Source: Zygnema cylindricum
Lineage: Eukaryota > Streptophyta > Zygnematophyceae > Zygnematales > Zygnemataceae
Assembly (NCBI GenBank): GCA_037447655.1
Contig: JBBHKE010001840.1
Span: forward strand, 52,871 to 116,870
Direction of reading: 5' to 3'
Length of the DNA: 64,000 nucleotides
Shown here: in pieces, positions 19,031 through 58,190 of the stretch
Layout of the letters: each line of letters starts with the position of its first letter
Numbering within the stretch: the first letter of the stretch is position 1
Program-made: the position numbers and the translations under genes
Notes under the pieces: generated by a model
Told to the model about the DNA's origin: nothing
Databases searched by the model: none
Seen by the model: the letters and a program-made list of their open reading frames with translations, nothing else

Positions 19031-19139
19031 TTGAGAGGAGCAGAGTTATTGCCTCTGCATCTAGTTGGATTAGGGATCCGAAAGTCTTGTGCGGGTAGAC
19101 TTCCCTCACGTTCTCAGATGTATTTTACATTCCTCAGCT

Positions 19140-30490: not shown

Positions 30491-31420
30491 TTATTTTGTT
30501 CTCCACCTTTTCCCTAACAAAGCTAAGTCTGATGTCCATGTGTTTTGCTTTAAAATGATGTTTGGGATTAGCAGCAATTGCAATTGCTGCTTGATTATCA
30601 CAGAATATTTTCTGAATTCCACTCTTAAGATGCCCAATTCACCAAGCAAGGATTTGACCCACATTAATTCCTTCACAGCAGAGCAAGATGCCATATACTC
30701 TGCCTCTATGGTAGATTGAGCAATGACCTTTTGCTGCTTACTGTTCCAGCAACAAGCACCATTCCCCACATACAACACATATCCAGATGTACATCTTCTC
30801 ATCGGAGCATCCCCATAGCTGGCATCACTCCAAGTGGTGATGTCAGTGTTTTCCCCACCCAGATGCAGCCATAGATCCCTAGTTCCTATGAGATATTTGA
30901 GGACCCTTTTTGCTGCTACCCAATCTCTTTTGGTAGGAGCATTTAGACTCCTACTTAGCACTCCTACAGCTGGTGCTAAATCCGGTCTCGTACAATTCAT
31001 AAATTATATCAGACTGCCCACTACCTGCTTGTATGGAATAGTCTGCATAAACTTCTTTTCTTCTGGACCTAGTTCATCATGTGGAATTAGGATGTCTCCT
31101 TCCTCACTCCCCTCACTTCCCTTCTTTAAATCCATGGGAGTCGTGCAACTGTTGGCCTTGTTCATCTGAAATTTTTCCTGCATGTTTCCAATTGTTTCTT
31201 TCTGAGTTAGTCTAATTATCCTCTTTTTCCTATCTCTCTCTACTTGTATTCCCAGAATATATCTAGCTTCCCCCTTGTCCTTCATTTCGAATCTTCCCTT
31301 TAGATTTGTTTTTAGTTTGTTAATTTTCTTTAATGACTTACTTAGAACAAGAAGATCATCAACGTAAATTGCAATAAAGATGATACCTTCCTCATCTTCA
31401 AAAACATAAATTGAATGATC
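30491..31420 (-). pseudogene. Copia-C RT C-terminal part and RNase H
   Basis: Beyond the TAA, the minus strand reads IYVDDLLVLSKSLKKINKLK (catalytic YVDD) and MKDKGEARYILGIQVERDRK. A second TAA replaces Tyr in SLIYFMNCTRPD, splitting 31004-31285 from 30491-31000. RNase H includes TWSDASYGDAPM and STIEAEYMASC, then a frameshift before the CDN motif, so VFCDNEA is lost from the frame. RNase H would be inactive. Confidence 0.88.
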
Positions 31421-32820
31421 TTAACTGATGCGAAAGTATCCCTGACTGGTAAGGAACTCATCAAGTTTCTTGTTCCACTGTCTGGGCGCCTGTTTCAAAC
31501 CATAGAGAGATTTGATCAGCTGGCATACCTTGCTTTCCTCTCCTTGTTCCACGAATCCTTCCGGCTGTCGCATGAAGATCTCCTCCTCTAGTTCTCCATG
31601 TAGGAACGTTGTCTTTATGTCCATCTGGTGTACTTCCATGTCTTCTATAGCTGCCAGACTGAGAAGTATTCGGACTGAGGGAAATCTGACGACCGGAGCG
31701 AAGGTTTCTTCGTAGTCTATTCCCTCTTTCTGAGTAAAACCTTTTGCCACTAACTGAGCCTTGTATCGCTCAATTGTATTGTCCGGATTTAGTTTTAGTT
31801 TGAAAACCCACTTAAATCTAATTGGTTTTCTATCAGGTGGACAGTCGACCAGCTCCCATGTATCAGCCGCCATGATTGAAGCCATCTCTTCATTGATGGT
31901 CGTCTTCCACCGGTTTCTTTCCGAACAGTTCATTGCCTCTTCATATGTTTGAGGTTCGTCCGGGTGAGATAGTTTAGTTACCTTGTTATTAACTTGTTTC
32001 TCTTGAAGCCTTTTGCTGCTTCTTCTCCCTCCCTCAAAATCTGCGGCTGGAATAGATGGTTCTCGTGGATTCTTTCGATTCACCACGGCTTCTCCCCTAT
32101 CCCTTGGATCCATATCCGTTTCCACCACGTCTTCCGCTTGTGTCATTGGTGTTTCCAAGTTCAAGTCTTTCTCTGTCTGTTTTGAATCTGCAAGGATATC
32201 GTCCGAACCTGCAAAAGTATCGTCTTTTTGAAAACCCGAATAGTTAGGGAGATGAAATTCATCAGAATTGTTTGACTCTACTCTGATTCTGACTGATTTT
32301 GAGGATTTAAAGGGATCTATTGACTTCCCTTCATCCTTAACTACCATATGTTTTACTAAAATTTTATCTTCTCTCTTTAGATCATACACTCTATACCCTT
32401 TTACATCCTCATCATATCCTAGCAAGTATCCGGGTTTCCCTTTAGGATCTAGTTTCCAGTTTGATTTATCTATATCTAAACTGAAGACTTTACTACCGAA
32501 AACCTTTAAGTGAGATAGATCTGGTTTTCGACCGGTCCATTTCTCATATGGAGTTTGGCCTTTCACCGCCGAAGTTATAACTCTGTTTCTCAAATAATTA
32601 GCAAAATTCATAGCTTCGGCCCAAAATCTTTTTCCTATCCTTTTATCTGACAACATACTCCGGGCACTATCACTTAGTGTCCTATTCAATCTCTCGGCAA
32701 CACCATTCTGTTCCGGGTTTTCTGGAACTGTCTTTTGATGTTGAACACCATCCTCCCTTAAGAACTCTTCAAACTGATTGGAGGTATATTCCCCTCCATT
32801 GTCACTTCTTACTTTCTTTA
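31421..32820 (-). pseudogene. Copia-C integrase C-terminal part and RT
   Basis: After the frameshift the frame is open and reads VRSDNGGEYTSNQFEEFL (second catalytic Asp), PEQNGVAERLNRTLSD (catalytic Glu) and RKPDLSHLKVFGSKVFSLD. RT follows: WELVDCPPDRKPI, RYKAQLVAKGFTQKEGIDY, ETFAPVVRFPSVRILLSLAA, MDIKTTFLHGELEEEIFM, KVCQLIKSLYGLKQAPRQW. It ends at a TAA where relatives have Ser in RISSDHIIY. Confidence 0.9.
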
Positions 32821-34742
32821 TTGAGGTGAAGTTTCTCGACCCATGCCTTATATTGTTTGAAATACTCCGGAGTTTCTGATTTATTTTTCAGAAAGTATAC
32901 CCGGGAGTACCGAGACAAATCATCAGTAATGGTTAGCATAAATCTTTTGCCTCCGGGTGATGGCACTCTCGTCGGTCCCCAAATGTCTGTGTGTACCAAA
33001 TCAAGATCTTTTTCTCCTTTATAGGTTGCTTCCTTTGGCAATGGAAATCTGTGTGCTTTACTTTGAGCACACCCATTGCAATCACTCACATTATCATATT
33101 CCCCAAAGCGTATTCCTTCAACTACTCCCAACTTTTTCATTTCTCTTAATTTTTCTAGATTCACATGCCCAAGTCTCTTATGCCACAACATAATATCTTT
33201 GACACTAGCATAGTAAAGTTTGAGTTTTTCATTACTTAAAGCAAGCCTGAACATTCCTTGGCTACCTTTCTCAACAGTGAAATACACATCTTCGTCAAAG
33301 CTAGCTGTAAAGACTCCTTTTCTGGTGCTAGTTTCAAATCCTTTATCATCTAATACAGACGTAGAGATAAGATTTTTGTTTAACTCCGGAATAAACAATA
33401 CATCGGAGAACGTAACTATTGAGGTTTTTCCCTCCACTACAACTTTCAGATCTACCGATCCTACATAAGTAGTGGTCACTACCCTCCTATCCCCATATTC
33501 AATCTCTACTGTAGGGATCTTTCTCAGCTTAGTAAGCATATGCTTATCTTTGCACATGTGCATGGATGCACCTGAATCCACAATCCAACCTCCTTCACCT
33601 TTGAGTCCACCGAAAGCACATTTCTGCTTTCGTGGAATTTTGACTTCTGTTTTTGCCTCCAACTCCTCATCCAAAAGAAGTTCGTCGTCCTCTTTATCGG
33701 ATTCCTCCTCGAGTACCTGTGTGACAAGTGCCTTTTTCTTCCCTCGTGTTTGACCCCAGGTTCGCCCCTCCTTTATCCGAAGCTCGGTCAGTTTGGTACA
33801 TTCTGCCATGTAATGCCCGGGTTTCTTACAGAAATGACAAAGCCCCTTTGGTCCCCTTGTTACGGATTCATCGGATTGATTTTTCACGTCTTCCCCTCCA
33901 TGACTTCCAAGGGGTTTCCGTGAATCGTTGTTTCTCCAACTTGCTCCAGCCGCCAAGGCTTGTCCATTCTTAACTCCCCTCCGGATTTTGATTGTATTCT
34001 CTCGGACAAGAATCATACCAAGTACTAAATTCCATATCCACCTGGAGTCCGGTAGATCCTGTACCCGGTTTACAATGTTCTCATATTCATCGGGTAGTTT
34101 CATGAGTAAGCAGTGTACCTTTGCCTTCTCGGTTTCTACTTTTCCGGCACACTCTAACTCCATAAAGAGTATAGCAAGCTCATTGCAAAAATCGAGCATC
34201 TTCTCTCCTTTGTGAAAGTATCCATTGATCCTCTGGTCTGCTAGCTTCTGTTCCTGAATAGTACCGCTACGGTACATCTCTATAAGCACATCCCACAGAT
34301 CGGATGCCCTTTCCACCTGCAAATGAGGGCCTACGAGTCCTTGTGTGAGATGACGGAGAACAAAATGCTTGGCTGCCATGTTGTTGTAATCCCAGGTATC
34401 GATATCATTCTCCTCATTCCTCGGAATAGGAGACATGAAAGCAGATCCAGTTGCTATAGGTGTGGTTTTTTCTTTTTCTTTCCCTTTTTCCATCACGATG
34501 CTTTCTCCGTCTTCTGATTCCTCTGATGACGGTGGATCTGGTTTCCTACCAAATCTGCTTCCTCCAAACCCTGGAGGAATAGCAGGACCGGATGGGCGCT
34601 TTACTCGCCCACTCACTATTCCCCAAATTCTTTTCTCACATAGGGCTCCCATCATCATACTCTCCCAGTAGATGAACCCAATCCCATTGAAAATGGGCAC
34701 CCTAGAGGGTGGGCCCATAACTTGCAACTCTGAGACCTCCAT
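32802..34742 (-). pseudogene. Copia-C gag, protease and integrase N-terminal part
   Basis: A 646-aa open frame. Residues 1-250 are Gag (UBN2/retrotran-gag type, with MAAKHFVLRHL and FHKGEKMLDFCNELAILFME). The CCHC knuckle CHFCKKPGHYMAEC comes next, then the protease motif WIVDSGASMHMC. The GAG-pre-integrase and HHCC domain reads LWHKRLGHVNLEKLREMKKL then DCNGCAQSKAH, and the first catalytic Asp is in DLVHTDIWGPT. The frame ends after LHLNKESKK because of a one-base shift near 32824. The annotated ATG lies 20 bases inside the LTR; a second ATG (MGPPSRVP) lies in the primer site and is shared with copia-A and B, so it is the likelier ancestral start. Confidence 0.9.
34710..34722 (-). promoter_or_regulatory. 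Copia-C primer binding site
   Basis: Minus strand AGTTATGGGCCCA abuts the LTR end (TTGCA). It matches the initiator tRNA-Met anticodon arm complement at 12 of 13 positions. The ATG is in frame with gag. Confidence 0.72.
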
Positions 34743-34945
34743 TGGTACTCAGAGTAGGCAGCTTACTAGAAGCCTCTAGGATAACCTCAGTTCACTAACC
34801 TTTGTCTGAAAAATGCTGACACCCTGACAAAATACATACTTATCGAGCTACGCCCCTTGGAAGGGCTGACTCCCTTGAGTCCGCCACAAAAAGAATCCTT
34901 GAATTTGCTCCCCTGAGCAATTAATTATCAATGGTCAAAGATGAC

Positions 34946-38498: not shown

Positions 38499-38941
38499 CA
38501 TAGTTTAAAAGTACGTGAAAGTATGCATATTGTGCGCAAAACATACAATATGACCTTAAGACCCAAATTGTATTGGTTGCAAAATGAAAAAAAATAGTAA
38601 TAGGGTTGAGTTGCACATCGATCGATAGAGAATTAAACATCATGCCTAAATTTTGAAAAACATTCGGACAAAAAAATATTTTTTGTGAGTTTTGAGGTAT
38701 TTTTTATTTAAACTGTCAGATTTGGGCAATCGAACGGTCGCTGATCAATGTAGCGATCTAAGAATATCACATGAAAAGCCCATAACACAACTTACGATAT
38801 GACTATTGTCAGATTAGGATGATCGGACGGTCGATGATCAAAGTAGCGATTTAAAAAGATCACATGAAAAGCCCATGACACAACTTACGATAAAGGCGCC
38901 TACAAAAGGCCTAGAATAGAAACGCCTACTTTTAAACTATG
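38499..38941. mobile_element. hAT-like MITE, copy 1
   Basis: 443 bp bounded by CATAGTTTAAAAGTACG and CGCCTACTTTTAAACTATG. It is homologous along its length to 57757-58190. The flanking 8-mers CTTAGCAT and CTTAGCAA differ at one base. The body has two tandem copies of a block ending in AGATCACATGAAAAGCCCAT. The terminal pattern CANNG and 8-bp duplication are typical of hAT elements. Non-coding. Confidence 0.75.
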
Positions 38942-40045
38942 CTTAGCAAACTGTGAGGAAATTGTTTAAACGGTCATTTGTACGATCAAACGTCATAATG
39001 ACAAAGCTCGACGGCAAAAAACGCCCAAGCCTACATGGCGGTTTGGATATAGATGGCGGAGTTCCCTCATTTCACGCGCGTCACAAAAATTAGTGCCGAG
39101 CGACTCGAATGAGGCGTCAGTATTTCTATGCGCGTCATATCGAACTCATTTCCGTTGTCTTTGAGGCTCCGGTACTATAGCCACCGTACGGAAAGGTCGG
39201 TCTCATCTGGGCGTCTTATGAAAGACACATTTTTTTTACGGGATTTGATCATGGCAGTGACTGGACTTATGAAATACACATTTTTTTAAGGAAATTATCA
39301 TGGCATTGTTTGTTTTGGTTGCGTATAGTCATTTACGCCATTTTGTCAAAAAATATACTTTTGAAGTACACATTGTTACAAGTAAAGTATCGTTCAGTCT
39401 AAATTTGACGGTCAGTTGGTTGGACAGCATTGACTTTCAAAATATTGTTTCAACCGCCTAAACTTTTGCCACGCTTGCGAACATCGACCGTCATTATATA
39501 ATGAGCAATTCACACGGCCGACGAATGTTCGCGGTAACAAAACTGCGGCAACCACATGTTAATAAAAGTGCGGCAACCACATGTTAATAAAGGTGTTGCA
39601 GACAATCATTTTTTGTTGTTACGTGAGATTCATGGTGAGAGCACGTTGGATATTTATTACCCGCAAAATTGAAATTTAGTCGTCTAAGCGTTACATTGAA
39701 TTTAGACACAAATTGAAACGAAACCTCTTTAAACTAAAGTACTGTAAGTCTCGTACGGAAATGTTAAAACGCACGTAACGAAATTTCGCTGTCAATGTAA
39801 GAATGTTGATTCGTAGAAAGTGTGGCTCGATTTCGTCGCGCGTGACGATGCACATTTTTTCATTTAATTTCGATTGATATTTTAAAGTTGGTTCGTTTTA
39901 TTTGTAGCGTACAAAGTTTATTTCATTTCGTGCGTTTTAATATTTCGGTACAAGACCTTCTATACTTCAGTTTAAAGGGGTTTCGTTTCAATTTGTGTAT
40001 AAGCGTGAAGTTCCATCATACGATTCTGTAATCGTACTGCAAACT

Positions 40046-40538: not shown

Positions 40539-41242
40539 ACGTCACAGAAAAAAATGAAGCAAACTCCTCGCAGATGAACATCGGACGACCAGTATTACCT
40601 CCAAGAACTCCGAAGAGTTTCAATAAGATTCTCTGTAATGTTGTTTTTTGTATAAAAACAAAATATGCGGTACGATTTTGTACGGAGGGTCGCGGGATTG
40701 TCTATAAACTACGCCACTTTTCGCCTGATGGAACCTCACCCTAAGTTCAATGTAACGCTTATACAACTAAATTTTAATTTTGCGGTTAACTGAATATCTA
40801 ACGTGCTCTCACCGTGGAGCTCTCGTAACGACAAAAAATAACTGTCTGCAACACTTTTATTTACATGTGGTTGCCGCAGTTTTGTTACTGTAAACGTTCG
40901 TCGGCGTGTGAATTGCTAATTTTATTATGACGGCGAACGTTCGCAAGCGCGGCAAAAGTTTAAGCGGTTGAAACAATATTTTGAAAGTTAAAGTTGTCTA
41001 ACCGATAGACCGTCAAATTTAGACTGAACGGTATTTTATTTGTACCAATGTATACTTTAAACGTACAATTTTTGACAAAATGACGTAAGTGACAGTGCGC
41101 AACCAAAACAGTCACTGCCATGATTAATTCTTTTTTTTTACACATTCCTCTTGCCCATCCGTGTGGTCCCAAATTTGTCAAGTACGGAGAGACGTCAAAT
41201 TATTTCATTATGACATCGAATGGTGTCTATTTGTTTTGAAAG

Positions 41243-43984: not shown

Positions 43985-44471
43985 TGTCATGCCGTAAGAC
44001 GTCAGCGGGTATTATGATTTAATTGTGTTTTAATTGATGTTTCGGTGACGTGAAAGGTTCATATCCGAGAGTACTACTAGAGATTCGTACGAGACAAAGG
44101 TCGAAATATACTCTCGTATGGCACCACGGGAACACGATATGAAATCAGCGTGAAACTGGACCACGGTACGGCATCAGACGTCAGGAAGTCAAACGGCTAC
44201 GAACCTGATTGGTGTCTGAAGTCATGAACCCTTCGAGGATCATGAATCATTTTTGCTTAGCTTAGGGAGGGTTTTCATCCTCGAGGTGTAGATGTAAGGC
44301 AGTCCGAGGCGGCCACGCAGCAGTCGTCTGTTGAAACTGGCAGCGTTTTAACATAGAAACTTGCCTCCTCAGAGACATGTAGGATTTAGTGTAGCCATAC
44401 GGATTAGTGAAAGCATAAGATAAATGCCATTTGGCGAGATACTAACTTTTGCAAATTAAGTATGAGAATCA
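43985..44471. mobile_element. LTR-like repeat, copy 1 (487 bp)
   Basis: Starts TGTCATGCCGTAAGACG and ends GAGAATCA. Homologous along its whole length to 55183-55671 (489 bp). Both begin TG and end CA with unrelated flanks, so they are probably solo LTRs or LTR fragments of one family. No matching target duplication found. Abuts copia-E. Confidence 0.6.
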
Positions 44472-45844
44472 GAGAAGAGAAAGATTTATACATTACTCAT
44501 GAAACTCCCAGTTGAGTACGAAAACATCATTTATCGTATGCAAAAAATATATGGCTCCTTATGGACTTGGAGCTTTACCATGGGGATAATTATTGTGAGG
44601 GAAAGCACTTTGGAGCTTCGTAGGGGAAGTGACAGGGTGAATGTATTTATAGCTGGTGGTGATTGGCTGAAGCGTGATGAGAGGAACGGCAGTGGCGAGC
44701 GGAAGCGTGATGAGAGGAAGAAAGACGAAGGTAAACCTTATCGGAACTTTGGTGGAAAGAGAGGGAGAGGAAAAGAAAGGGGGGCTTTGAAAAAGGGTGT
44801 TTGCTTCTTTTGTAGAGAACCGGGTCACTATATGGAGGAGTGTCCTTGTTGGAAGAACTTAGAAGTTGGAATGTGAAAGAGGAGGAAGAAGGGGAAGAGG
44901 AGAAAGAGGATGAAGAAATCTTGGAGCTTCTTCACATCGGTAGAATGGAGAAGAGAGAGAAGTACACAAAAATTACACAAAAGCAACGATGTGCTTTTGG
45001 AGGCATAAGGGAAGTAAAGGGAAGGGAGGTACTTAAGGGAGTTAGATAGGATAAGGATGTCAAGGAGTGTAGAAGTATGACTTAGAAATGAGGAAGTCAG
45101 ATCTAGGATACATAAATGAAAAAGGGAAAAATAAAAATAATGAGGATAATTCTATAAATATTTGGGAAACAGAAAACTGGTTGGAAAGGGAGACTTCAAC
45201 GGATTTGGAGGAAAGGGGAGAAGTAAAACTAGAGGGGGTTTTAAAGGATAGGGGAGAAAAGAAATATTTAATGAAAAGTTTAGGGGAGGAGAAATACTCT
45301 TTGAGAATCATTATAGAAAGTGATAGCGGAAAGAATTCCATGGGAGAGAGTGAGGAAAGTTCAGAAAATTGGGTGAGTATCATGGATAAAAATATGAGCT
45401 CGGAAGATGTAGATTTTATGAGGAACTTAGTGGGGACTCTTGATATAACGATAAATTTGGGGGGTATCGGTTTTGACATCACTAATGGGAGTGATGCCAT
45501 TTATCAAGGTGTGCCTGTAAAATGGTTAGCATCTGGGTGTGTGTTGACGATTGGAGATGGGGCACGTTTTTTGAATTGCAAGAGGGAAATAGGATTCTGT
45601 GTGGATGGAAAAGAGATGAGTGGGACAAAATCTTTGCTTGGATTTATGGAAAATGATATGCTTAATAAAATGTGTGATCAGCAAGATGGAATGTTTATTT
45701 CAGCTCATCTAATAGACCTTTTAAAATACGAGAGTATTCACTTAAAAATTTATGAGGAGAAAAAAAAAATAAAAAAAAATTTATTATATATATATATATA
45801 TTTAGTGGGAGTTGAAAAGAAAGTAGACTACAAAATAAGAGAAG
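44472..45844 (+). mobile_element. Copia-E internal region, 5' truncated and shrunken
   Basis: Begins mid-gag, has no 5' LTR or primer site, and reaches the 3' LTR at 45845. It keeps gag and a compressed set of RT/RNase H landmarks but lacks protease, integrase and most of RT. A decayed or non-autonomous derivative. Confidence 0.75.
44499..45049 (+). pseudogene. Copia-E gag remnant
   Basis: MKLPVEYENIIYRMQKIYGS matches copia-C gag (MKLPDEYENIVNRVQDLPDS). A zinc knuckle CFFCREPGHYMEEC (CX2CX4HX4C) follows at about residue 105. A frame change then leads into the acidic segment ending QKRCAFGGIREVKG, homologous to the residues just before the protease in copia-C (RKQKCAFGG). The protease DSG motif is missing. 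Confidence 0.75.
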
Positions 45845-45879
45845 TGTTGAAATTTATGTATTTTCTAGGTCTGTATTGA
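45088..45879 (+). CDS. Copia-E 263-aa ORF derived from compressed pol
   Basis: Open frame without a stop, but not a normal copia protein. Landmarks in order resemble condensed pol: SLGEEKYSLRI (cf. DLGEAKYILGI), DFMRNLVGTL, INLGGIGFDITNGSDAIYQG (cf. LGGEHTDITTWSDASYGD), SGCVLTIGDGARFLNCKRE, then a CDQQDG segment in place of the CDN motif. The YVDD RT core and integrase are absent and RNase H active-site spacing is altered. The last residues read into the LTR. Could be chance survival of an open frame, or a domesticated or non-autonomous product. Confidence 0.5.
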   Translation: MRKSDLGYINEKGKNKNNEDNSINIWETENWLERETSTDLEERGEVKLEGVLKDRGEKKYLMKSLGEEKYSLRIIIESDSGKNSMGESEESSENWVSIMDKNMSSEDVDFMRNLVGTLDITINLGGIGFDITNGSDAIYQGVPVKWLASGCVLTIGDGARFLNCKREIGFCVDGKEMSGTKSLLGFMENDMLNKMCDQQDGMFISAHLIDLLKYESIHLKIYEEKKKIKKNLLYIYIYLVGVEKKVDYKIREVLKFMYFLGLY

Positions 45880-47086
45880 AAAAATAAATAGAGTTAGTCA
45901 GCAAAGGCAGCCTGCTTCTCGCTCAAATCTCTCCGGTCCCCATACTTGTTGCAGTCACTGAAGACCACAGAGAGAGATAGAGCCATGGCTGTCTAAAGAG
46001 GATAGGCTAATCGCAGTTTGTACCAAAAAGGATATGCCAGAATTAGGATTTGATCCTGGTACCTACCATCCTATAATAGCCATTAGTTTTAGCCTATAGC
46101 TTAAAGTCAACGATGGCATGTGTAGAGTACAATAGGTATTTATAAGTGTAGAAGTAGAGAATTCTAACAAACTAACAAATAACCAAAAACTCCTCTAGAC
46201 CAGATTTGAACCAAGGTCTATGGTTATATTTGTAGAGGTAAGCCTTAACTAATAAGGCCTTACTGAAACGATAGACATATCAGGTTTCAAAGGTATATAA
46301 ACCTTAACGCAAAGGCTAGTTAACACCAGACTAACGAAGAGGAACAATTCATGCATCTACGCGAATCTGAACCGTGTAAAATATGTTTTGATCTAGCGGC
46401 CGACATTGTAGCCGCCACACGAAGTGAGCTTTTGGCGGCATTCGGAGATAGCGTCACGCGGTGCCACGTGTCGCCACCTTATTTGATACTAGAGAAGTTG
46501 GGAGGAGGAACCATGGCTCCTGATTTGACAGGTGTCACCTGTAGACCATGTCGTACAATATCCGTACAATAAGTACATCGCCCATTGTACCTTCTTGTAC
46601 TATAAAGTGTTCCTATTAGACTAGGGTTTAGTAGTAGGTAGTCGTGAGTAGGCAGACCAAGACTTAGTGATGTTTAGGTACCTCTCTCTTAGAGAGCTTG
46701 TAACTATAAAGGTCATCTTTGACCAGCCATAATTTAATGCTCGGGTGAGCAAATTCAGTGATTCTTTTTGCTGCTGACTCAAGGGAGTCCAAGCTACACA
46801 ACGGTGTAGTTGATCAGAGACTTTGCTTGCCACGGTGGCACTTATTTAGTGGGAAAGTCAAAGTGGGGAATATTGTCTAAAACACATATTTAAGCTTTGC
46901 ATTCTGTGGTGGAACTGAGCACACAGCACACAGAAGGTCTTCTCTTCACAAGGGTGAAGGTGTATTGGGGTTTTGATTGTCAAGGGATCATTCATTTAGG
47001 TTTATATAAACTTGGAGTCAGCACTATGTAGATTAGCTTCTTTTGGATCTGCGAATTCTGTGGGCAATGGAGCCTATAGAATTTCA
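45845..47086 (+). mobile_element. Copia-E 3' LTR
   Basis: 1242 bp, TGTTGAAATTTATG to GAATTTCA, same family as the copia-D solo LTR in the opposite orientation. It carries two minus-strand tRNA-like modules (46035-46105 and 46193-46263), G-box CACGTG at 46465-46470, a GTAC palindrome with one mismatch (46564-46600) and a TATAAAG-type box near 46706. Confidence 0.85.
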
Positions 47087-48285
47087 CTTTCTTCCTACCT
47101 AATTAACTCACTCAGAAAACCTAGACAACTTAAGAACTTCTAACAAAAAAAAAAAAAAAAAAATATATAAATATTAGGTTGCACGAATTATCACGAAAAT
47201 TATCATTGCTTTATAGACAGGCATAGCGTGGCATTGTGCTGATACGCGTGCCCTCACAGGCTAATAAATACGTTGGTATTTTAAGCTATGATCTCTTTTC
47301 GATGATTCGGAATTGGAAGGAGGTTAGAGCTTTGTTGGGAGACCTTAGCGATCCCTCCAAGTGAGTTATCGCGTCCTTGTGGTTGCAGGCGCGTAATAGG
47401 TTGTTAAGCTTGATAACCTAAAGGGGTTAGGATCCGACTGAAGGATGTGCCTTTCTTTCTGCATAGGCATTGTGGTTGCATTTTCTTTAGATCTGACCGT
47501 GATGGGTCTTGGATAACGACTTCTTGTCGATTACATCTGGCCATGTTAGGCTGGAATAATTTCCTGTTTTATTACATCTGGCCTTGTGGGCCTGAGATAG
47601 TTTCCTGTTTTCTACATCTGGCCTTGTGGGACTTGAATAGTTTCCTGTTTTATTAAATCTGGCCACAAGTGGCTTTGCATAGGTGACATGTTTCTTCTTG
47701 GAGTGGCTTGAAATGACTTATTCTGGTATTGCTTAGATCTGACTGTGACAGCCTTGTTAGGGGTGTTCACGATTAAACTAACCCGGTGATACAGAATAGA
47801 TCAAATCGTTCAGGGGTGCTTAGTTGGGTGGGTTATTGTTTGTGTGAATTTAATGACCTCTTGTGTGACTTGATCAATAGATCTGGCAGTGGGCATATGC
47901 CCACTGACCCTGAGTAGGGTCCGGCATCTAGTTCCATCCGTATAGGACAACCGGACTACTGTCTGTTTACATGCCAACAGACTGGAACAATTTACCGTTT
48001 CCAACTGGTACAACTAGGAGCTCCAGTCTTTACCGTGGACCGGATCGGGATTTGATTCTCACGCGCTCACCTCTTGTCCAGTGTTTAGGTCATATTAGTC
48101 AGTATGCTCAGTCTCAGCTTACGCGTTAACCCGACTCTAAATCTGGTATTACCAGCACGTATAGATCTACTTCATCTGTCTCCTCATCCTCTGTCTCCGC
48201 ATCCTGTTCCCATAGCTGGCGGGAAGATTCAGACATAGACTCCTTTGATATCCGGGATCTAAATCTACCACTTTCGCTTTTTCCT
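47087..48285 (+). other. Gypsy-F leader region with 41-bp tandem repeats
   Basis: No gene. 47533-47700 holds four copies of a unit of about 41 bp starting ATCTGGCC(T/A)TG and containing AGTTTCCTGTTTT. No 5' LTR or primer site could be recognised. From about 48130 the gag frame is open without an ATG and encodes a Ser-rich stretch. Confidence 0.5.
47533..47700 (+). repeat. 41-bp tandem repeat, four copies
   Basis: ATCTGGCC recurs at 47535, 47576, 47616 and about 47657. Located upstream of the gypsy gag, in its probable untranslated leader. Confidence 0.7.
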
Positions 48286-49674
48286 TTGGGCGGAAATATA
48301 CACACTAAGTCTAATTCCTATTTTGTGGATATAGCGTCGTCCATAGACACCGGAGGAGGTAGAAATCAGTTTTGTTTTTCGGGTCTCAAGGACACTATGT
48401 CCTTCTCACATTTTCGAATGCTCTTTGATACCGAGATGCGCGATCTTGCATTCCGGTATCAAGACAGCTATGATTTACGGGTTGCTTTTCCGTTACTTGG
48501 GCGATACCTTAGGGGATCTGCCCTATCTCTATATACACGAAAATATGCGGCAACTTGTGCTATGACAGAAATGGCACCCGCATATTCTGGATCTTTAGCT
48601 ATAACAGGCAGTCCAGAAATTCTTTTCCAAGTTGTTGGATCTTTAGCTATAACAGGCAGTCCAGAAATTCTTTTCCAAGTTGTTGTACCTGCAGTTTATG
48701 ACTCTGCAAGCAACGAAATTTCACCTGAAATACTTGAGGTCCCTCATCAGTTCGTCGTTGCGGCTCGAGCTGGAACTTCAGCCCGCCCTGCAATGTTGGT
48801 CCCTTTAAGGGAACCAGTATTATTTGTTTTCAGTTTATTACAAGAAGAATACCGAATGCAGAACCCCGAGCAGGTTAAAGAACTAATGAATTTCAAACTT
48901 CGCCCAGGCGAAACTGCCCCGACATTGCGGGCGCGTATGGAAACATTACGCGAAGCACTACCAGATCTCATGTCAGACGCAGAGGCAGTTCAGAAATTTG
49001 TGGGGCAATTTCCCACCCAATCTCGAAGTTTCATTCAAAGCTATTTGACTGAGGCATATCGCCTCAAATTTACGTTCGAGCAAGCTGTAGAGTATGCTCT
49101 ACGGTATAAAATGCAGACCAGCTGGTGGGACGCTCATGAGCGACCCAAATCTTCACCTAATATAAACCCGAATTCTAATCCTAATCCACGCAACCCATGG
49201 CCCAATATGAGACCCCTAAGGGCTCCAACCAAGGAAACATTACCAACAACCCCTGGTGTTCGTATATGCTTTCGATGTGGTAACAGCGGTCACGACGCAC
49301 GCGACTGTCCAGATAAGACTGCCAGGTGTACTCATTGTAATCAAACAGGTGATTATGTACATCGATGTCACATTAAGAATCCCGATTTCAGTTATCAAAG
49401 TCAAATAAAAAACAACGGTATACCTGCTTGCTCGGCAAAATTGGTCACTCCACCCAAGGGGGTAGAGAAAGATAACCCTCCAAAAATCAATAGGAGAAAC
49501 AAAGAGAAAGCCGAGATGCAGGCTATCGTGGCGGCCATGATGAAGGAGCAGTTTGCCGCGCTTATGGCGCAAGTCAAACCGCAATTAACCGGAATTGCTC
49601 GAACCGTGGTTCATATGCCCTCTTTTGTTGGGCGACCTCTTCGCGAGTCCACTGTTCAACAGCGGGCAGCTTAG
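48286..49674 (+). CDS. Gypsy-F Gag
   Basis: A 462-aa open frame from a TTG; the frame is open upstream to about 48130 but without ATG, so the start is unresolved. The capsid-like part (about residues 180-290) contains FSLLQEEYRMQNPEQVKELM and ARMETLREALPDLMSDAEAV, of retrotransposon-gag type. The first zinc knuckle CFRCGNSGHDARDC is canonical CX2CX4HX4C. The second, CTHCNQTGDYVHRC, has Asp where His belongs. A 48-nt tandem duplication (48589-48636, 48637-48684) repeats GSLAITGSPEILFQVV. The C-terminus is basic and Lys-rich. Confidence 0.85.
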   Translation: MGGNIHTKSNSYFVDIASSIDTGGGRNQFCFSGLKDTMSFSHFRMLFDTEMRDLAFRYQDSYDLRVAFPLLGRYLRGSALSLYTRKYAATCAMTEMAPAYSGSLAITGSPEILFQVVGSLAITGSPEILFQVVVPAVYDSASNEISPEILEVPHQFVVAARAGTSARPAMLVPLREPVLFVFSLLQEEYRMQNPEQVKELMNFKLRPGETAPTLRARMETLREALPDLMSDAEAVQKFVGQFPTQSRSFIQSYLTEAYRLKFTFEQAVEYALRYKMQTSWWDAHERPKSSPNINPNSNPNPRNPWPNMRPLRAPTKETLPTTPGVRICFRCGNSGHDARDCPDKTARCTHCNQTGDYVHRCHIKNPDFSYQSQIKNNGIPACSAKLVTPPKGVEKDNPPKINRRNKEKAEMQAIVAAMMKEQFAALMAQVKPQLTGIARTVVHMPSFVGRPLRESTVQQRAA

Positions 49675-49770
49675 TTTAAATGGACTCCCGATCATAATCG
49701 CGAGTCAAAATCCATTAACACACGAATCCCATTATCATTTGCCAAAGAACCTCGCTCACCTATTCCAGAA

Positions 49771-50466
49771 ATGGCCTCAAGCATCACTGCTGAGGCATTA
49801 ACTATTTTAGAGAGGAGCATACAAGACACATATAAGGTCAAAGAACGTTTGTCCATCTTGTCCACCATGCTTCAAGAGTTGGATAGCAACGAAAAAACTA
49901 TAGATCTAACTCCTTCAGTAGTTGCGTTACAAGCATTACAAAACCATCGTAATGCTCTCTCCCTTCAAGCTATTACTATTGAAGAGCGGACTAGCCTCAC
50001 TCCTCACATCAGTTTTCTAGATAACAAATTGGGCGTGTTCACTGTTAATGGGTTTGCTCCGACACTTCCTCTCATGGATATAGGCGCAAAGCCAACTATC
50101 GTCGGTTCTGATTTTGCCATCAAAATAGGTCTTAGAGCAGATAAGTTACAACCCACATCCACACGTCTACTGACTTCCGCTGGTACCACAGAGCCAGTCC
50201 TCGGTATTACGATAGAACCACCTATTTTCAGTTTCAAAGTCAATCAACGACAGATTTTGCAGAAATTTATGCTCATGCCTAGGTCACCAAGTGTAGTGAC
50301 TATGAATGCTTGGTTGGTCAAGACGTTTTTTTTTCGAGTTGGGGGGTGGTTGATATGCACGATTAAACATTTTCGTACAGACCTAAAAACTTATCAGAAT
50401 GTAAAATTTGCTTACCTCTTATCTCGGCCCGGCAACCCATGCCTACCACGGCCCATTCGGCGCTGA
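49771..50466 (+). pseudogene. Gypsy-F aspartic protease region
   Basis: A 231-aa frame with a Leu/Glu-rich N-terminal linker, then the retropepsin-like core GFAPTLPLMDIGAKPTIVGSD and later TEPVLGITIEP. The active-site triplet D-T/S-G is DIG here, so catalysis is doubtful. After VTMN, a shifted frame reads CLVGQDVFFSSWGVVDMHD, the conserved end of this protease family, showing a frameshift at about 50305. The remainder of the annotated frame is out of phase. Confidence 0.7.
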
Positions 50467-50699
50467 TCTTGCCAGCCTATGTCGCAGTTGGCATAGGTGC
50501 AGACATCCTTGAATCCCTAACAGCGGATGAAATCTCACCAGATTCCCGAGTTTACCAGAATTATTTAGTACACCCGGATTTACCATTGACTCTTCAAATT
50601 TTGACCGACTATATAAATTTACTATACCAATTCCTTTATTTAGTATTCCAGATCCACCCTCCATTACGATAAATCTTTCCGGGTTCTTGCCCATTAAAT

Positions 50700-51350
50700 G
50701 GACACCGGTCAATTTACAACCTCACCAAAACGGTCTCGTCATCTTAGACCTTTTTGCAGGAATAGGGACTTCACTTCTCTCTTGCCTTCGGAACACTCTT
50801 CTAATAAAGCATTACTATTTCCGTAGATATTGACCCCTTGGCTAGACGCGCTCAGTTGCACCAGTGTCAAGTCTTGCACGAACATTATCTTCATCTCTTA
50901 CCCCAGTCTGTGTTTCATGATATGCATTCGGCATTGCCAGAAGATATCTGGATAATACGAAATAATCATTTAATAGAATTGGAACCAATTGATCTCCTCT
51001 TTGCCGGGTGGGAATGTAAAGGTATATCTAGGGCCGAGAAAAGTTTAGGTCTCGCAGATCCGCGTTCTAAGATGTTTTTCGAGGTGGTTCGTCTCATCCA
51101 CTTCTTCCAAAAACTATATCGTCCTTTCGGATACATCCTAGAAAATATCGCAGCTTATAACGATCCCCGACCCACGGTTCTCGCAGATTACAAGCGCATC
51201 AAATCATTAATTGGACCGCCGTTGATTATCGATGCCGCATGCCACAGTTCGCTGGCCCATCGTGTTCGTTCCAAGTGGACTAACCTGGTGGACATGGGTC
51301 GGCTACGAGAGGCTAACCTCGCTACCCGACCACCTAACCTTTCTATTTAG
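50700..51350 (+). pseudogene. Gypsy-F DNMT3-like cytosine-C5 methyltransferase
   Basis: Would transfer a methyl group from S-adenosylmethionine to cytosine. Motif I is VILDLFAGIGTSLL (DLFAGIG at 50747-50767). A frameshift then occurs at about 50822, and motif II reads VDIDPLARRAQ. Motif IV reads DLLFAGWECKGIS with the catalytic Cys at 51015-51017; Glu precedes it where most families have Pro. DPRSKMFFEVVRLIHFF and FGYILENIAAY (motif VI, ENI) follow. Motif VIII is SSLAHRVRSKWTNLVDM. The FFE..RLIH and AHRxRxxWxNL patterns are closest to DNMT3. Downstream pieces to about 51790, including LSFVLGMGFAAGRYAQN, probably continue the C-terminal part in other frames. Confidence 0.8.
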
Positions 51351-51446
51351 GATGCACTTCTTCCATTTCATAAAGTCCACACGTGTATACAGACAGACTA
51401 TCCTCCTGCATTTGGTCTTAACATCTCGGGCCAACCACTACGTGCA

Positions 51447-52010
51447 GTGCCTACACTAGTTGCATATCCACTCTCTCAGGCATACTCACATAATGGACCA
51501 AGCATGCTTCAGAATACTCATACAAGCAGCTTAGAAGAACCTACTACTGCAAACGAGAACATCTTTTACATTTCATTCCAAGCACTACTGCCGCTCCAGG
51601 ACTCACCAAGCCGCAGCGTTCCATCTTACTTTGTCAAGTCATGGACCCCCAATCATTGTCATTCGTCTTGGGCATGGGGTTTGCAGCTGGCCGATACGCA
51701 CAGAACAATCCTTCTCAATCAGCTGGGGGGGGGGCATACACCATTTAAAAATACAACATGCAAGTCCTCACCTTCTGTTCGGGGTACAACTTTTAAGCTC
51801 GATCTTTTTCCTTTTCCCGCTAAGTCTGACACAGATCACGCAGTAAATTGTTTGCACCAGCTTCCTGTCGAGTATGAGTTGGGCCACTCCTTGATAGCAT
51901 ATGAACAGCTTGCATTTGCACAAGCCATGGAAGCCATGACCATTAACACGCCTGAAAAACCGACATGGAAATTCGGAACTGGACTAAAGAAACTGAACAC
52001 GAACTGTTAA
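51447..52010 (+). pseudogene. Gypsy-F linker between methyltransferase and RT
   Basis: A 187-aa frame of mixed origin. The last third (LPVEYELGHSLIAYEQLAFA...) is a plausible pre-RT linker and leads, after a stop, into NRNVDAFAFSMKDLG, the usual gypsy entry to RT. The earlier part is out of phase with the methyltransferase tail. A run of nine or more G at about 51726 may mark a frame slip. Confidence 0.5.
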
Positions 52011-52084
52011 ATGAAGTCATAAACCGAAACGTAGACGCATTTGCTTTCTCCATGAAAGACTTAGGCTGACACACCACTTACAAA

Positions 52085-52840
52085 ATGTCTATTGACCTGG
52101 AAGATGACAGACCAATATTTAAGCCCAACCATCGTCTATCCGAAACTGAATGGGAATCTTTAGATAAACAATGCGCAGAGTTAGAAGAGACAGGTTTGAT
52201 TTATAGGTCCGATTCAACCTTTGCGGCGCCCACCGTCATGCCTCGTAAAAAAGACGCGGATGGGAATTTTACAGAACGTCGCATGTGTGGGGACTATAGA
52301 GAACTGAATGCACGCACAATCCAAGACCGACATCCAATGCCGTTGGCTAAGGACATTTTTGATCATGTTGGAGGAGCTATATATTTCAGCATCCTAGATA
52401 CGCGACAAGGATTTAATCAGATCGAAATAGAGGAGAAAGATTGACACAAGACTGCATTTTGGGGTAGTGACGGACGTTGGGAATGGGCGGTTCTGCCATT
52501 TGGACTGAAAAATGCACTGGCAGTATTCCAGAAAGTCATGGACTCGGTCTTGGGGGGATGTAAGTTTGCCCGACGCTATATCGACGATCTAATCATCGCT
52601 TCAGCCTCTATAGAGGAACATGCGGTGCATATAGAGTGGGTATTGAAGGAATTAAAAAAGGTAGGACTCAAATGTCATCCTACCAAATGCACTTTCAGGG
52701 TCGAAAGTGTACCCTATCTTGGGCACTTTATTTCATCCGAGGGAATTACTCCGTTAGAAGTCAAAGTGGAGGCAATCAGTAAACTCCCGGCCCCAACAGA
52801 TTTGACTAGCCTACGTGCATTCCTGGGCGAGCAAATTATT
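52085..52840 (+). pseudogene. Gypsy-F reverse transcriptase
   Basis: Two open pieces (52085-52444, 52538-52885) joined by readable sequence. Motifs: IFKPNHRLSETEWESLDKQ, FAAPTVMPRKKDADG, RMCGDYRELNARTIQDRHPM, SILDTRQGFNQIEIEEKD (catalytic Asp in LD), a TGA where Arg is expected (CGA to TGA), then WAVLPFGLKNALAVFQKVMD, FARRYIDDLIIAS (catalytic YIDD) and VPYLGHFISSEGI. All RT blocks are present with one in-frame stop at 52442. Confidence 0.9.
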
Positions 52841-53400
52841 ACCGACGGTTTGTTCCTAGTTTCAGCACACTTGCATCTCTATTGAATGAACTCTTGAAGA
52901 AGTCGGTTCCGTTCACGTGGGGACCCTCCTATATCAAGGCCTTTCAGGGATTAAAGGACGCACTGTCCACCGCTCCTATTTTTTGTCCCCCAAATCATAA
53001 GTTGCCATTTTGCCTACAAACGGACTTTGGTAAGCCCGGTATTGCAGCCATCTTAACTCAGCGTGAACTCACAGGTGAGGAATATGTGGTGGCTTATGCC
53101 TGTCGGAGCAACAATCAAGCGAAGTCAAATTACAGTAGTTATGAAGGGGGAATGCCTTGCCGTAGTTTGGGTTATTGTGCATTTCAGACATTATCTATAT
53201 GGCAAGCCTTTTACCCTTCTTACTGACCATCAACCACTGCATTGGCTCATGACCAATGACAAGCTATCCGGCAAATTAGCCCGTAGGGCTCTTATTTTAC
53301 AGGAATATGACATGGAAATAATCCATCGACCCGAGCTCCTCAGTTTCAATGTCGACAACCTCTCCAGGAACCCTTTGCCCCACTTCAATGATAACGGTGT
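52841..53400 (+). pseudogene. Gypsy-F RNase H
   Basis: After a frameshift in the FLG(x)ANYYRRFV segment (about 52830), the frame 52882-53226 reads FTWGPSYIKAFQGLKDALST and LPFCLQTDFGKPGIAAILTQ, with the first RNase H Asp in TD. The next frame, from 53063, continues with VMKGECLAVVWVIVHFRHYL (catalytic Glu), LLTDHQPLHWLM (Asp) and HRPELLSFNVDNLSR. Intact in motif content, broken by frame. Confidence 0.85.
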
Positions 53401-54500
53401 ACGACAGGATTTTAATGACGTATCAGTTGCCTCCTTATCAGCCGGAGCACATTTGATTTACAGTTTTGCCGCACCGACAAACCACAAAACCGAACACGAT
53501 CCATGGCGGGACAGTGCTTTAATTCTTTTTCTATCTACTCAGTCTTTTCGGGCGGGCACCCCACCAATGGAAGAGGAGCGTGTTCGTAAGAGAGTCCAAA
53601 GTTATTTATGGATAGGGGGCTCACTTATTCGTCTTCTCTCAGATGGAAGTCACCGGCATGTCCCACGACCGACGGAACGACTATCACTTATAAACCAAAT
53701 TCATACTGACCTTGGACACAATGGCACCAAACGGACTTTGAGTTTGGTACAGGTACGGTATTGGTGGTCCGGCATGCAGGTTGATGTGGCGGCTGTGTTG
53801 CAGGAATGCAACACATGTGACCGACTACGAACTTCATTTTCTAACCGACATACCTCCCTTCAGCCCTTGCCAATTTGAGGTTTCTTTTATAGGTGGTCGT
53901 GTGATCTTGCAGGTCCCTCCATTTCGGAAAACAAAGATCATGCGTAATGATCGAAATTTCAGTAATGGGTGGAAGTTGTGACCTGAAAACCGCCAGACTT
54001 ACAATCGTCTCTTCAGCAGAACACGTGTTCCGCCGCTCCCAATTAAGTTCCGTGAAGAATTTCAGGAGATGCATGACGTGGTGTTAATCGATCACCGGGG
54101 GACGAGTTGGGATCATCCTCAAGCAGAAGGTTTGGCAGAGAGAGCTGTACAAACCTTTAAGCGTGCTTTGCGTAAACATTGCTTAAAAAAACAGATTACG
54201 GTGTGGGATGAATCATTGGGATATATCGTCATGGGTTATCGCATGTCTGTACAAGCCAGTGTGGCAAATTTCAGCCCCTATTATGTGTTGTTTGGCCGAA
54301 AACCACTACTAGGTAGGAATGTACAAAAAGCCGCGAGCTTACCTCTACCTCTTATGTCTGATTCTTTGTTTTTGGAAGAACTAACTAACCGAGCATTTCT
54401 TTTCGCTAGAGAAATGCCCATGGCTTTTGAAAACTTGCAGATTGCCCAACATCACGACTCTTTACGGTTTGCAACAACTCGCAGTGGCAGTTATCGGCCA
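53400..54500 (+). pseudogene. Gypsy-F integrase, damaged core
   Basis: The zinc-binding HHCC domain is clear: HTDLGHNGTKRTLSLVQVRY then LQECNTCDRLRTSF. The core is decayed. YRWSCDLAGP, carrying the first catalytic Asp, is readable around 53895-53925 in a shifted frame. The second Asp block is largely lost around 54000, and the Glu block HPQAEGLAERAVQTFKRALR is intact in the frame from 54069. Integration by this copy is not possible. Confidence 0.75.
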
Positions 54501-54923
54501 AAACAAAAACCCTTCCAAGTGGAGGACTATGATTATTTGCGACGACAAACTTTTGATACACCCGACACGGATGTTTCAGCTCACATCTTGAGGATAACAA
54601 AAATCGACCCGAATGGATTATTAAGCCTACAAGGGGCCGACATGCGAACTTTGCGAGAGCATTCGAAAAATTGTGCCCCCTGCTATCTTCCCGATCTTTC
54701 CCACAGCTTAGACCCGTGGCGGATGCCGATTACCGAGGCCACTGAGTGCCACTTATGCCGGCGATCTAATGAAGAAACAACAATGCTCCTCTGTGACTAT
54801 TGCAATCTAGGATTCCATATAGAGTGTTTGGTTCCACCTCTACACACTATCCCGGCTGGACAGTGGTTTTGCCACGGGTGTCACTACCTACCGGCTGTCC
54901 TTACCAGCTCCCGCGCAGGCTAA
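54069..54923 (+). CDS. Gypsy-F integrase C-terminal part with PHD finger
   Basis: A 284-aa open frame. It begins within the catalytic Glu region and continues through a C-terminal segment (KQKPFQVEDYDYLRRQTFDT...). It ends in a C4-H-C3 PHD finger: CHLC, CDYC, HIEC, and WFCHGC, with the usual Trp two residues before the last Cys pair. Known PHD fingers bind histone H3 tails, often by K4 methylation state; an aromatic cage cannot be judged here. The finger probably guides integration or docks the complex on chromatin. TAA follows near a G-rich polypurine tract (about 54925-54938). Confidence 0.85.
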   Translation: MHDVVLIDHRGTSWDHPQAEGLAERAVQTFKRALRKHCLKKQITVWDESLGYIVMGYRMSVQASVANFSPYYVLFGRKPLLGRNVQKAASLPLPLMSDSLFLEELTNRAFLFAREMPMAFENLQIAQHHDSLRFATTRSGSYRPKQKPFQVEDYDYLRRQTFDTPDTDVSAHILRITKIDPNGLLSLQGADMRTLREHSKNCAPCYLPDLSHSLDPWRMPITEATECHLCRRSNEETTMLLCDYCNLGFHIECLVPPLHTIPAGQWFCHGCHYLPAVLTSSRAG

Positions 54924-54937
54924 GGAACTAGGGGGGG

Positions 54938-55176
54938 GAATTCCATCCTTACTTACTTCATCTTGATTTTACTTTTATTTTCTTGCTAGGTCCATGTGAT
55001 TGGAATAATTTGTTTTTCTGGGCAGATTCATTTATTATTTCTTGCGTTATATGTGCTTTGTACTCCGATAGTGGTCAAAAATACTGTACATATGTAATGG
55101 TCATTCAATTGCTTGTGTTTATCGGCGACCCACACTGGACATGATGCATGCCATTCACGGTTGTACTTCCATGCAC
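54938..55176 (+). repeat. Gypsy-F 3' flank repeat, copy a (possible LTR start)
   Basis: Starts GAATTCCATCCTTACTTAC just after GGAACTAGGGGGGG, a good polypurine tract, so this may be the 3' LTR start. A homologous block occurs at 56127-56362. If so, the LTR would be about 1190 bp with a second LTR start behind it. Confidence 0.55.
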
Positions 55177-55182
55177 GACAGT

Positions 55183-55671
55183 TGTCATGCCGTAAGACGT
55201 CAGCAGGTATTATGATTTAATTGTGTACTAATTGATTTTTTCGTGACGTGACTGGTTCATATCCGAGAGTACAACTAGAGATTCGTACGGGACTAAGGTC
55301 GCAATATACTCTCGTACGGCACCACGGGAACAGGATGTGAAATCAGCGTGGAACTAGACCATAGTACGGCAACCAACGTCAAGAATTCAAACGGCTACAA
55401 ACTTGACAGGTGTCTGAAGTCATAAACCCTTCGAGGTTCATGCATCATATTTGCTTAGCTCAAGGAGGGTTTTCATCCTCGAGGTGTTGATGTAAGGCAG
55501 TCCGAGGCGGCCATGCAGCGGTCGTCTCTTAAAACTGGCAGCGTTTTAACATAGAAACCTGCCTGCTCAGAGACATGTAGGAATTAGTGTAGCCATACGG
55601 ATTAGTGAAAGCATAGGATAAATGCCATTTGGCGAGATAGTAACATTTGCAAATTAATTACGGGAATCCAA
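55183..55671. mobile_element. LTR-like repeat, copy 2 (489 bp)
   Basis: Same family as 43985-44471, beginning TGTCATGCCGTAAGACG and ending GGGAATCCA. It lies inside the presumed gypsy-F LTR. The following 55672-56126 holds no gene. Confidence 0.6.
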
Positions 55672-56126
55672 TATTGGAAGGTTGTCGTGTTCTGACAAGC
55701 ATTATTTATCGGGATTTGTCAAACCCCTATCGTTAGGGTTTCATCTAAATATTTAGCGACCAACTAGTTTTTGAGTTAGGGTTTTTCCTTTTTCAGACCC
55801 ATAGTTTCATGCTAGTAATTGTCTCTAAGTTTTTCCTTCTCTTTGTACTAAGACCTTACCTAATCTACCGGCGCAAGCCAACCTGCAAGGTTTCCCTCCA
55901 AACTATCTTCTACATGATGTGATTTGTGAATTATGTATGTGGACTTGGTGTTTTCTTGCTGTCTGGACGCTGATCGTACGGGCCGGTACTCACCTTGTCT
56001 GGCCTTGGAGGAATACTAGTTATCTCGGCTCTTTCATCCGGCTAAGGAAGGGTTTTTACTAGCTGATTGGACTGTTGTAGGGAATATTGATGACTTCAGG
56101 GCCTAGTGGTTACTGTCGCAAATGAA

Positions 56127-56362
56127 TTCCATCCTTACTTACCTGATCTTGCTTTGTCTTTTATTTTCTTGCTAGGTCCATGTGTTTGGAAAAATTTGTT
56201 TTTCGGGCGGATTCATTTATTGTTTCTTGCGTTATATATGCTTTGTACTCCGATTGTGGTCACAAATACTGTACATATGTAATGGTCATTCATTTTCCTT
56301 GTGTTTATCGGCGACCCAAATTGGACGTGATGCATGCCATTCACGGTTGTACTGCCATGCAC
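56127..56362 (+). repeat. Gypsy-F 3' flank repeat, copy b
   Basis: Direct repeat of 54938-55176, from GAATTCCATCCTTACTTAC to CTGCCATGCAC. It ends where unrelated sequence begins. Confidence 0.75.
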
Positions 56363-57756: not shown

Positions 57757-58190
57757 CATAGTTCAAAAGTAGGTGACCGTACGCCCATACAATATGCCTA
57801 TTGTATGCAAAACATACAATATGGCCTTAAGACCCATATTGTATTGGCCGAAAAATGAAATAAAATAGTAACAAGGTTGAGTTGCACATGGATTGATAGA
57901 GAATTAAACGTCATGTCTAAATTTGAAAAAAAAATCGGATAAAAAAATCTTTTTCTGTGAGTTTTGAGCGACTTTTTATTTAAACCGTCAGATTCGGATG
58001 ATCTGACGCTCGTTGATGAAAGTAACGATCTAAGAAGATCACATGAAAAGCCCATAGCACAACTTACGATAGGACTATCGTCAAATTCGGACGATCGGAC
58101 GCTCGCTGATGAAAGTAGCGATCTAAGAAGATCACATGGAAAACCCGTAACACAACTTACGCTAAAGGCAACGCCTACATTTGAACTATG
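57757..58190. mobile_element. hAT-like MITE, copy 2
   Basis: 434 bp with ends CATAGTTCAAAAGTAGG and CCTACATTTGAACTATG. The flanking 8-mers CTTTGTTC (57749-57756) and CTATGTTC (58191-58198) match at seven of eight positions. Body homologous to 38499-38941. ORFs here are not real. Confidence 0.8.

Follow-up and report, generated by a model that had tools for sequence, protein, structure and literature searches.

The 64,000-nucleotide stretch of the Zygnema cylindricum genome analyzed here (the window; contig C1381:52871-116870 of a 353-Mb genome in 2,689 contigs) contains one damaged Ty3/gypsy-type retrotransposon (43,985-56,362) with a DNMT3-like cytosine methyltransferase domain. The observation was confirmed at the sequence level: the element belongs to the DNMT3-like Gypsy retrotransposons with split repeats, and its family has E-C-Q for P-C-Q in the catalytic motif, a state that recurs elsewhere in the group. 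We consider it probable that the window element is a decayed member of a Ty3/gypsy-type family (family A) that has many copies and was active recently, and that the family methylates its own new DNA before or at integration. The single polyprotein of family A has a C5-cytosine methyltransferase of DNMT3-like type between the protease and the reverse transcriptase (RT) and, behind the integrase, a PHD finger. Both methyltransferase activity and a biological role of this kind are putative.

In the window copy, the methyltransferase domain is spread over three frames. Motif I (DLFAGIG) lies in one frame (50693-50818); VDIDPLAR, G-W-E-C-K, ENI, and AHRVRSKWTNL lie in a second (50820-51536, with a stop at 51348-51350); and motifs IX-X lie in a third (~51557-51697, within the open reading frame [ORF] 51494-51748; position derived from the translation). 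All of the motifs listed in the original prediction (DLFAGIG, VDIDPLAR, E-C-K, ENI, and AHRVRSKWTNL) were present. Its placement of the block at 50700..51350 was right in location and slightly short in extent, as the domain runs from ~50690 to 51700. The open piece at 50808-51350 matches PF00145 (E, 1e-7; 32.2 bits versus a cutoff of 22). The K after the catalytic Cys is unique to the window copy among the family-A loci compared; the others have Q.

The predicted likeness to DNMT3 was borne out: the best PDB and fold matches were DNMT3 proteins, with DNMT2 far below the DNMT3 group among solved relatives, the assignment being defined by the rank of PDB matches and the predicted fold. The catalytic domains of DNMT3A and DNMT3B gave the best sequence and fold match and share the unpermuted motif order, although at motif IV DNMT3A has PCN, family A has E-C-Q, and a second family of this genome (family B) has P-C-Q. 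Pro-Cys in motif IV is a DNMT3 family trait found in family B and absent from family A; because Glu-Cys replaces Pro-Cys, family A is called DNMT3-like only.

The gag, RT, RNase H, integrase zinc finger, and PHD finger of the window copy have broken frames and follow the expected order, and the protease match is weak. The features of the element, all on the forward (+) strand, are as follows.

43985..44470, +, left repeat A1, right part missing in the window copy; begins TGTCATGCC; 90% identity over 486 bp to 55183-55668 (Kimura two-parameter distance [K2P], 0.106)
48130..49674, +, gag with CCHC zinc knuckle; 514-amino-acid open frame; PF00098, E 4.3e-4, 20.7 bits (just missing the cutoff of 20.8)
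49675..50466, +, protease region with a weak aspartyl protease match (PF13650, E 0.033, below the cutoff); relatives have MDTGA here
50693..51697, +, DNMT3-like cytosine methyltransferase domain in three frames; Glu codon at 51012-51014, catalytic Cys codon at 51015-51017
52070..53226, +, RT and start of RNase H, frames broken; RVT_1, 0.0025 (52070-52444) and 8.7e-19 (52445-52885); RT_RNaseH_2, 7.2e-17 (52810-53226)
53057..53878, +, end of RNase H (PF17917, 9.9e-18) and integrase zinc-binding domain (PF17921, 8e-15)
53982..54923, +, C-terminal part of the integrase (by position and comparison with locus L009) and PHD finger (~54747-54881; PF00628, 2.6e-10)
54931..54938, +, G-run, a putative polypurine tract judged from the sequence
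54938..55176, +, repeat B1; 92% identity to 56124-56362
55177..55186, +, B1/A2 junction GACA-GT-TGTC, a degenerate version of the palindrome GACAGCTGTC found in young copies
55183..56123, +, repeat A2; right limit fixed by the start of B2
56124..56362, +, repeat B2; lacks the terminal GACA that young copies have

A Pfam profile search of this broken copy did not detect rve. Given that its A repeats differ by a K2P of 0.106 and its B repeats by 0.080, the window copy is old.

Better preserved relatives carry the domain in frame. Of 782 candidates in a PF00145 search of the genome, 123 were scored and listed, every one above the cutoff; as L007 at least is a host DNMT exon, the list does not consist of transposons alone. 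The stretches read comprised 10 at chosen PF00145 matches (mostly long open frames), 2 on the contig of the window, and 11 at the low-scoring tail; the majority of the 123 matches lie outside them. Gag through DNMT forms one open frame in both C1344 (L009; a single 2,395-amino-acid frame) and C1407 (a single 1,757-amino-acid frame). The C1344 protein matches DNA_methylase (8.2e-12), RT (5.6e-30), RNase H (1e-34), integrase H2C2 (2.7e-15), rve (7.1e-12), and PHD (2.5e-10), with zinc knuckle (0.0029) and protease (0.0057) matches below their cutoffs. The Ty3/gypsy order of protease, RT, RNase H, and integrase is therefore present, with a DDE integrase and a weak protease match, and these one-frame relatives uphold the predicted position of the methyltransferase between protease and RT. 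At E 0.01, the 2,395-residue polyprotein, scanned in two parts, contained no tyrosine recombinase (PF00589), having rve (PF00665) instead, and the scanned polyprotein gave no PWWP or ADD match.

Five copies were selected by RT because no PF00145 row stood beside them in the genome listing; all five contained DNMT sequence. Four of them extend over motif IV, whereas the 1.9 kb examined for the fifth yielded just the final 74 DNMT residues. Neither a failed PF00145 search nor intact relatives lacking the block, the outcomes named in the original prediction as counting against it, was found, DNMT-free relatives having been sought among these five copies. A search with the family-A RT returned at least 112 matches (78 to 100% identity; 111 of 4,264 candidates scored), a lower bound on the copy number.

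Family B (L001, L002, L003, L006/L013, L008, L012, L025, L029, and L031) shares 38% identity with family A in the DNMT domain. The one copy scanned (L013) follows the family-A order, from DNMT through RT and RNase H to integrase, with a PHD match (0.0044) below the cutoff. In a family-B copy at C1374 31308-35679 (L013, L045), the ORF end and B repeat are duplicated ~4 kb apart, which suggests a nested insertion or rearrangement. The host exon at L007 (1498-1797 of C514) is chromomethylase-like and has the usual PPCQ motif; its best PDB entries were 9mvy, 7ubu, and 4fsx (E, 3.4e-29 to 3.7e-29), the last of which is the maize chromomethylase ZMET2, and the next were DNMT1 entries (1e-12). Chromomethylases are described as a plant-lineage class (PMC12344493), which makes a streptophyte host probable.

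The Glu before the catalytic Cys, which the original prediction had singled out in this one copy, is real and family-wide. It was found in 22 of the 23 family-A loci examined (leaving out L005 and L019, duplicates of L020 and the window), that is, in every readable one; for the 23rd (L048), the region was absent from the 1.9 kb examined. Both GAA and GAG occur, and thus the amino acid, not the codon, has been kept. In family B, the residue was Pro at all nine loci (L006 and L013 counted once). A change from Pro to Glu requires two base changes.

We then considered a wider set, consisting of the proteins of two database searches and nine of our own copies (156 with a domain match, 104 of which covered ≥70%). 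After removal of two duplicates and addition of DNMT3A, the 103-row alignment had Pro in 69 rows, Glu in 34, and no other residue before the Cys, which was itself present in 102 of the 103. We used this alignment in preference to a looser motif scan of 147 proteins (64 Pro, 31 Glu, 51 without a readable motif pair, and one Cys [P0132], likely a false match elsewhere). On a quick tree of the 103 rows with the motif column excluded, the Pro/Glu distribution needs six changes, at least three of them forced by the starred branches. A more careful tree of 51 rows (a chosen subset plus two partial Closterium proteins) also needs six; the starred branches force four, and a single change sufficed in 0% of bootstrap trees. 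Constraining all Glu rows together was rejected (log likelihood lower by 146; p-AU, 2.4e-6), the constraint group having been set by residue after the first tree had been inspected, while constraining family A with the Closterium Glu rows was not rejected (p, 0.44). Because a single Glu grouping is rejected and the trees force multiple changes, we conclude from these alignments that the Glu state was gained or lost on more than one occasion.

The string ECQ was not found in the methyltransferase papers listed by a full-text search. A scan of viral contigs with a pattern allowing Pro or Glu yielded 6 confirmed loci among 35 matches, all six with Pro-Cys and all bacterial- or phage-like enzymes. 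A shared motif IV change in RID/Masc1 was considered and dropped, as their change is described as lying in motif VI (PMC6709928). It is possible, if doubtful, that the replacement of Pro by Glu is a repeatedly selected switch to a changed reaction or substrate (e.g., new cDNA, an RNA:DNA hybrid, or chemistry beyond plain methyl transfer); if true, these enzymes would make up a class of their own within the C5-methyltransferase fold, functionally distinct and confined to green-lineage retroelements.

The repeats of the element are split. In C1344, A1 (85514-86444) equals A2 (94981-95911) and B1 (94737-94978) equals B2 (95912-96154), giving the layout A1-ORF-B1-A2-B2; the same layout occurs in C829, C1915, the window, and the family-B copy C1374. 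Families A and B thus have DIRS-like split repeats (A-coding-B-A-B) instead of the two identical flanking long terminal repeats of Ty3/gypsy elements. A G-run stands at the start of B1, and three other family-A copies have a small inverted repeat upstream of it. In three young family-A copies, TGTC opens the left end, GACA closes the right end, and GACAGCTGTC stands at the internal B1/A2 junction. These three copies are flanked by 4-bp target duplications (TTGG, AAGG, and CCCT), which point to an integrase. Family A therefore has the TG...CA termini and short target duplications of Ty3/gypsy elements. To our knowledge, DIRS elements lack target site duplications. Neither this lack nor a tyrosine recombinase, the two DIRS traits compared, was found in the family-A copies examined.

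Several further repeats were observed in the window. Direct repeats at 38522-38897 and 57793-58169 (83 to 87% identity; 19.27 kb apart) enclose the whole DNMT element and are possibly the ends of an older element that received it. An inverted repeat pair (39288-39516 and 40905-41133) has 229-nucleotide arms that are 84% complementary and 1.4 kb apart. Copia-type fragments, identified by eye from translations, lie at 11741-15368, 19099-21538, 30491-34748, and 45073-45879, the last within the 5' part of the DNMT element.

Relatives are not confined to Zygnema. The two database searches gave 41 and 111 matches, which included named green-lineage species: Marchantia polymorpha (P0004, P0009, P0014, and P0020), Closterium sp. 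NIES-53/54 (P0038 and P0042), Chlamydomonas eustigma, Haematococcus lacustris, Monoraphidium neglectum, and Scenedesmus. Most of the other related rows are unnamed metagenome proteins. A separate search with the family-A protein returned none of 4034 candidates at E 0.001; this reflects a limit of the word filter, as a Closterium protein aligns at 142 bits, and is no sign of uniqueness. A 2019 opinion article describes transposon-encoded methylases as absent from land plants such as tracheophytes (PMC6338049); given the Marchantia proteins, a liverwort has them.

The domain occupies two positions. Simple patterns applied to 102 rows placed it between RNase H and integrase in 42 and between protease and RT in 14 (nine of these being our own copies, set by hand), leaving 46 without an assignable position. 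In the 51-row tree, a 98/96 branch separates the assigned rows of the two positions; its protease-RT side holds Marchantia and Closterium. P0112 (C. eustigma), the only named chlorophyte covering enough for a tree, falls on the other side in the 103-row tree. Two metagenome proteins of Gypsy type, P0021 and P0016, share with our element the DNMT group, the integrase, and the PHD finger but differ in having the DNMT between RNase H and integrase and in belonging to a separate clade (98/96), which in the 103-row tree also holds P0112. Because the PHD finger and the DNMT group are common to both positions, the sequences suggest one capture of the DNMT with later relocation; two separate captures may also account for them. 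By eye, the C-termini of P0016 and P0021 have an extra stretch after the PHD finger that resembles a chromatin-reader-type domain.

The closest described system is KnitGypsy-Dnmt3 of Klebsormidium nitens, reported as a Dnmt3-type domain in the Pol of an LTR (long terminal repeat) Gypsy element with DIRS-like repeats and under purifying selection (PMC5890265). The suggestion that the window copy represents a wholly new lineage is not supported as worded, since DNMT3, Gypsy Pol, and DIRS-like repeats had already been described together in that element. The Dnmt3-type domain within a Gypsy Pol polyprotein is found here also, and the repeat structure given in the legend of PMC5890265 is that of the window, C1344, C829, C1915, and C1374; because of this shared structure, we argue that these are one kind of element. 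The comparison is by description, no row of the two database searches being named Klebsormidium. The present case differs in that two families coexist in Zygnema, one with E-C-Q. A PHD finger has no occurrence in the main text of PMC5890265, and the recurrent E-C-Q, the two domain positions, and the chlorophyte, Closterium, and Marchantia relatives are not described in the text consulted. SymbioDIRS-Dnmt3 of Symbiodinium is similar in having a Dnmt3 domain in the Pol ORF and A-coding-B-A-B repeats (PMC5890265), although it has a tyrosine recombinase in place of the DDE integrase (PF00665) and 4-bp target duplications found here. The Troyka paper makes no mention of a methyltransferase or a PHD finger.

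The domain has been maintained. Half of the 10 copies tried were stop-free across 90% of the DNMT domain. Nonsynonymous divergence (dN) in the domain was 0.11 to 0.19 for the 8 of 10 pairs whose synonymous divergence (dS) was saturated. For the saturated pairs, dN was 0.03 to 0.07 in RT-RNase H, 0.06 to 0.08 in the integrase, and 0.19 to 0.29 in the protease. The close pairs, unsaturated for DNMT in two cases, had few changes and gave noisy values (DNMT, 0.24 and 0.30; RT, 0.28; protease, 0.23 to 0.82; integrase, 0.61 to 0.75). Because dN is low against saturated dS, the substitution pattern indicates that the DNMT domain is under purifying selection, looser than that on RT; the published Ka/Ks of <0.2 was not reproduced as a number. 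Six loci (L014, L015, L017, L046, L047, and L049) are ~98 to 99.8% identical to stop-free relatives, and each has a different 1-base deletion in the DNMT domain. The idea that these breaks in young copies mark the domain as dispensable was dropped, as six different 1-base deletions may be assembly errors.

On the explanation that we favor, reverse transcription would yield ordinary B-A long terminal repeats, the cDNA ends would join in a circular or end-joined form, and the integrase would insert the molecule cut between GACA and TGTC of the palindrome, producing the split layout. The methyltransferase would act on the new DNA of the element before or at integration, such that the insert would enter the genome already cytosine-methylated, and the PHD finger would steer integration to a histone mark.

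Several points weigh against this explanation. The circular or end-joined intermediates and the PHD steering are conjectural. C1374, the only family-B copy in which both ends were read, shares the junction but shows no target duplication, and the window copy has lost its right terminus, so that no duplication is readable there. The KnitGypsy-Dnmt3 domain produced no methylation in a yeast test, a result that its authors call inconclusive (PMC5890265). The Glu of family A could alter or abolish methyl transfer. Finally, there is no clear footprint of self-methylation: the observed/expected CpG ratio is 0.85 to 0.94 in nine family-A coding stretches, and directional CpG decay is only slightly above other C-to-T changes (ratios, 0.69 to 2.55 in 11 family-A pairs and 1.33 to 2.20 in 5 family-B pairs; both Copia control pairs and two family-B pairs did not align). 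Although the ratio differs by family, CpG depletion was rejected as a footprint, since the directional test gives no backing.

A serious, if rather unlikely, alternative is that the enzyme with Glu has little or no methyltransferase activity and has been retained for a different function (DNA or hybrid binding in the particle, or polyprotein assembly), as DNMT3L acts without catalysis. In its favor, an otherwise near-universal Pro gives way to Glu in all 22 family-A loci that could be read, and the family-A CpG ratio near 0.9 exceeds that of two family-B stretches (0.66 to 0.67) and of three Copia stretches in the window (0.32 to 0.55). However, the catalytic Cys, ENV/ENI, and RxR are still conserved in most copies beside the fixed Glu, and the decay test does not separate families A and B. 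In addition, the motif IV-VI contact in M.HhaI is reported to use the main-chain carbonyl of the Pro (PMC4802922), and thus Glu could in principle keep it and need not break it.

Methylation of element RNA or RNA:DNA hybrids rather than double-stranded DNA would fit the location of the DNMT next to RT in the polyprotein, and RNA methylation has been proposed for SymbioLINE-Dnmt (PMC5890265); we nevertheless hold this to be quite improbable, as the closest proteins of solved structure are DNMT3-group enzymes that act on DNA, and DNMT2 ranks far lower. Slightly less probable again is methylation that serves the host or self-restraint and not the element, which is discussed as possible in PMC5890265 but sits poorly with the abundance and recent insertions of family A. 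The window copy is broken, yet capture of a host methyltransferase gene in this damaged copy only, or an assembly or read-through artifact, is scarcely credible given the single open frames of C1344 and C1407, the DNMT sequence in 23 of 23 family-A loci examined, and the 41 and 111 database matches that include green-lineage species.

DNA methylation is a major means of transposon silencing in plants and algae, and a de novo methyltransferase encoded by a transposon would reverse the usual roles. The relatives in chlorophytes, Closterium, and Marchantia suggest that this kind of element is wider than the single alga with the Gypsy case in PMC5890265, as described there. With the standard motif and the Glu form side by side in one genome, families A and B provide a natural contrast through which to ask how the element gains from its enzyme. 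The alternation of Pro and Glu, with no third residue in 103 rows and more than one origin, is a direct lead for methyltransferase enzymology.
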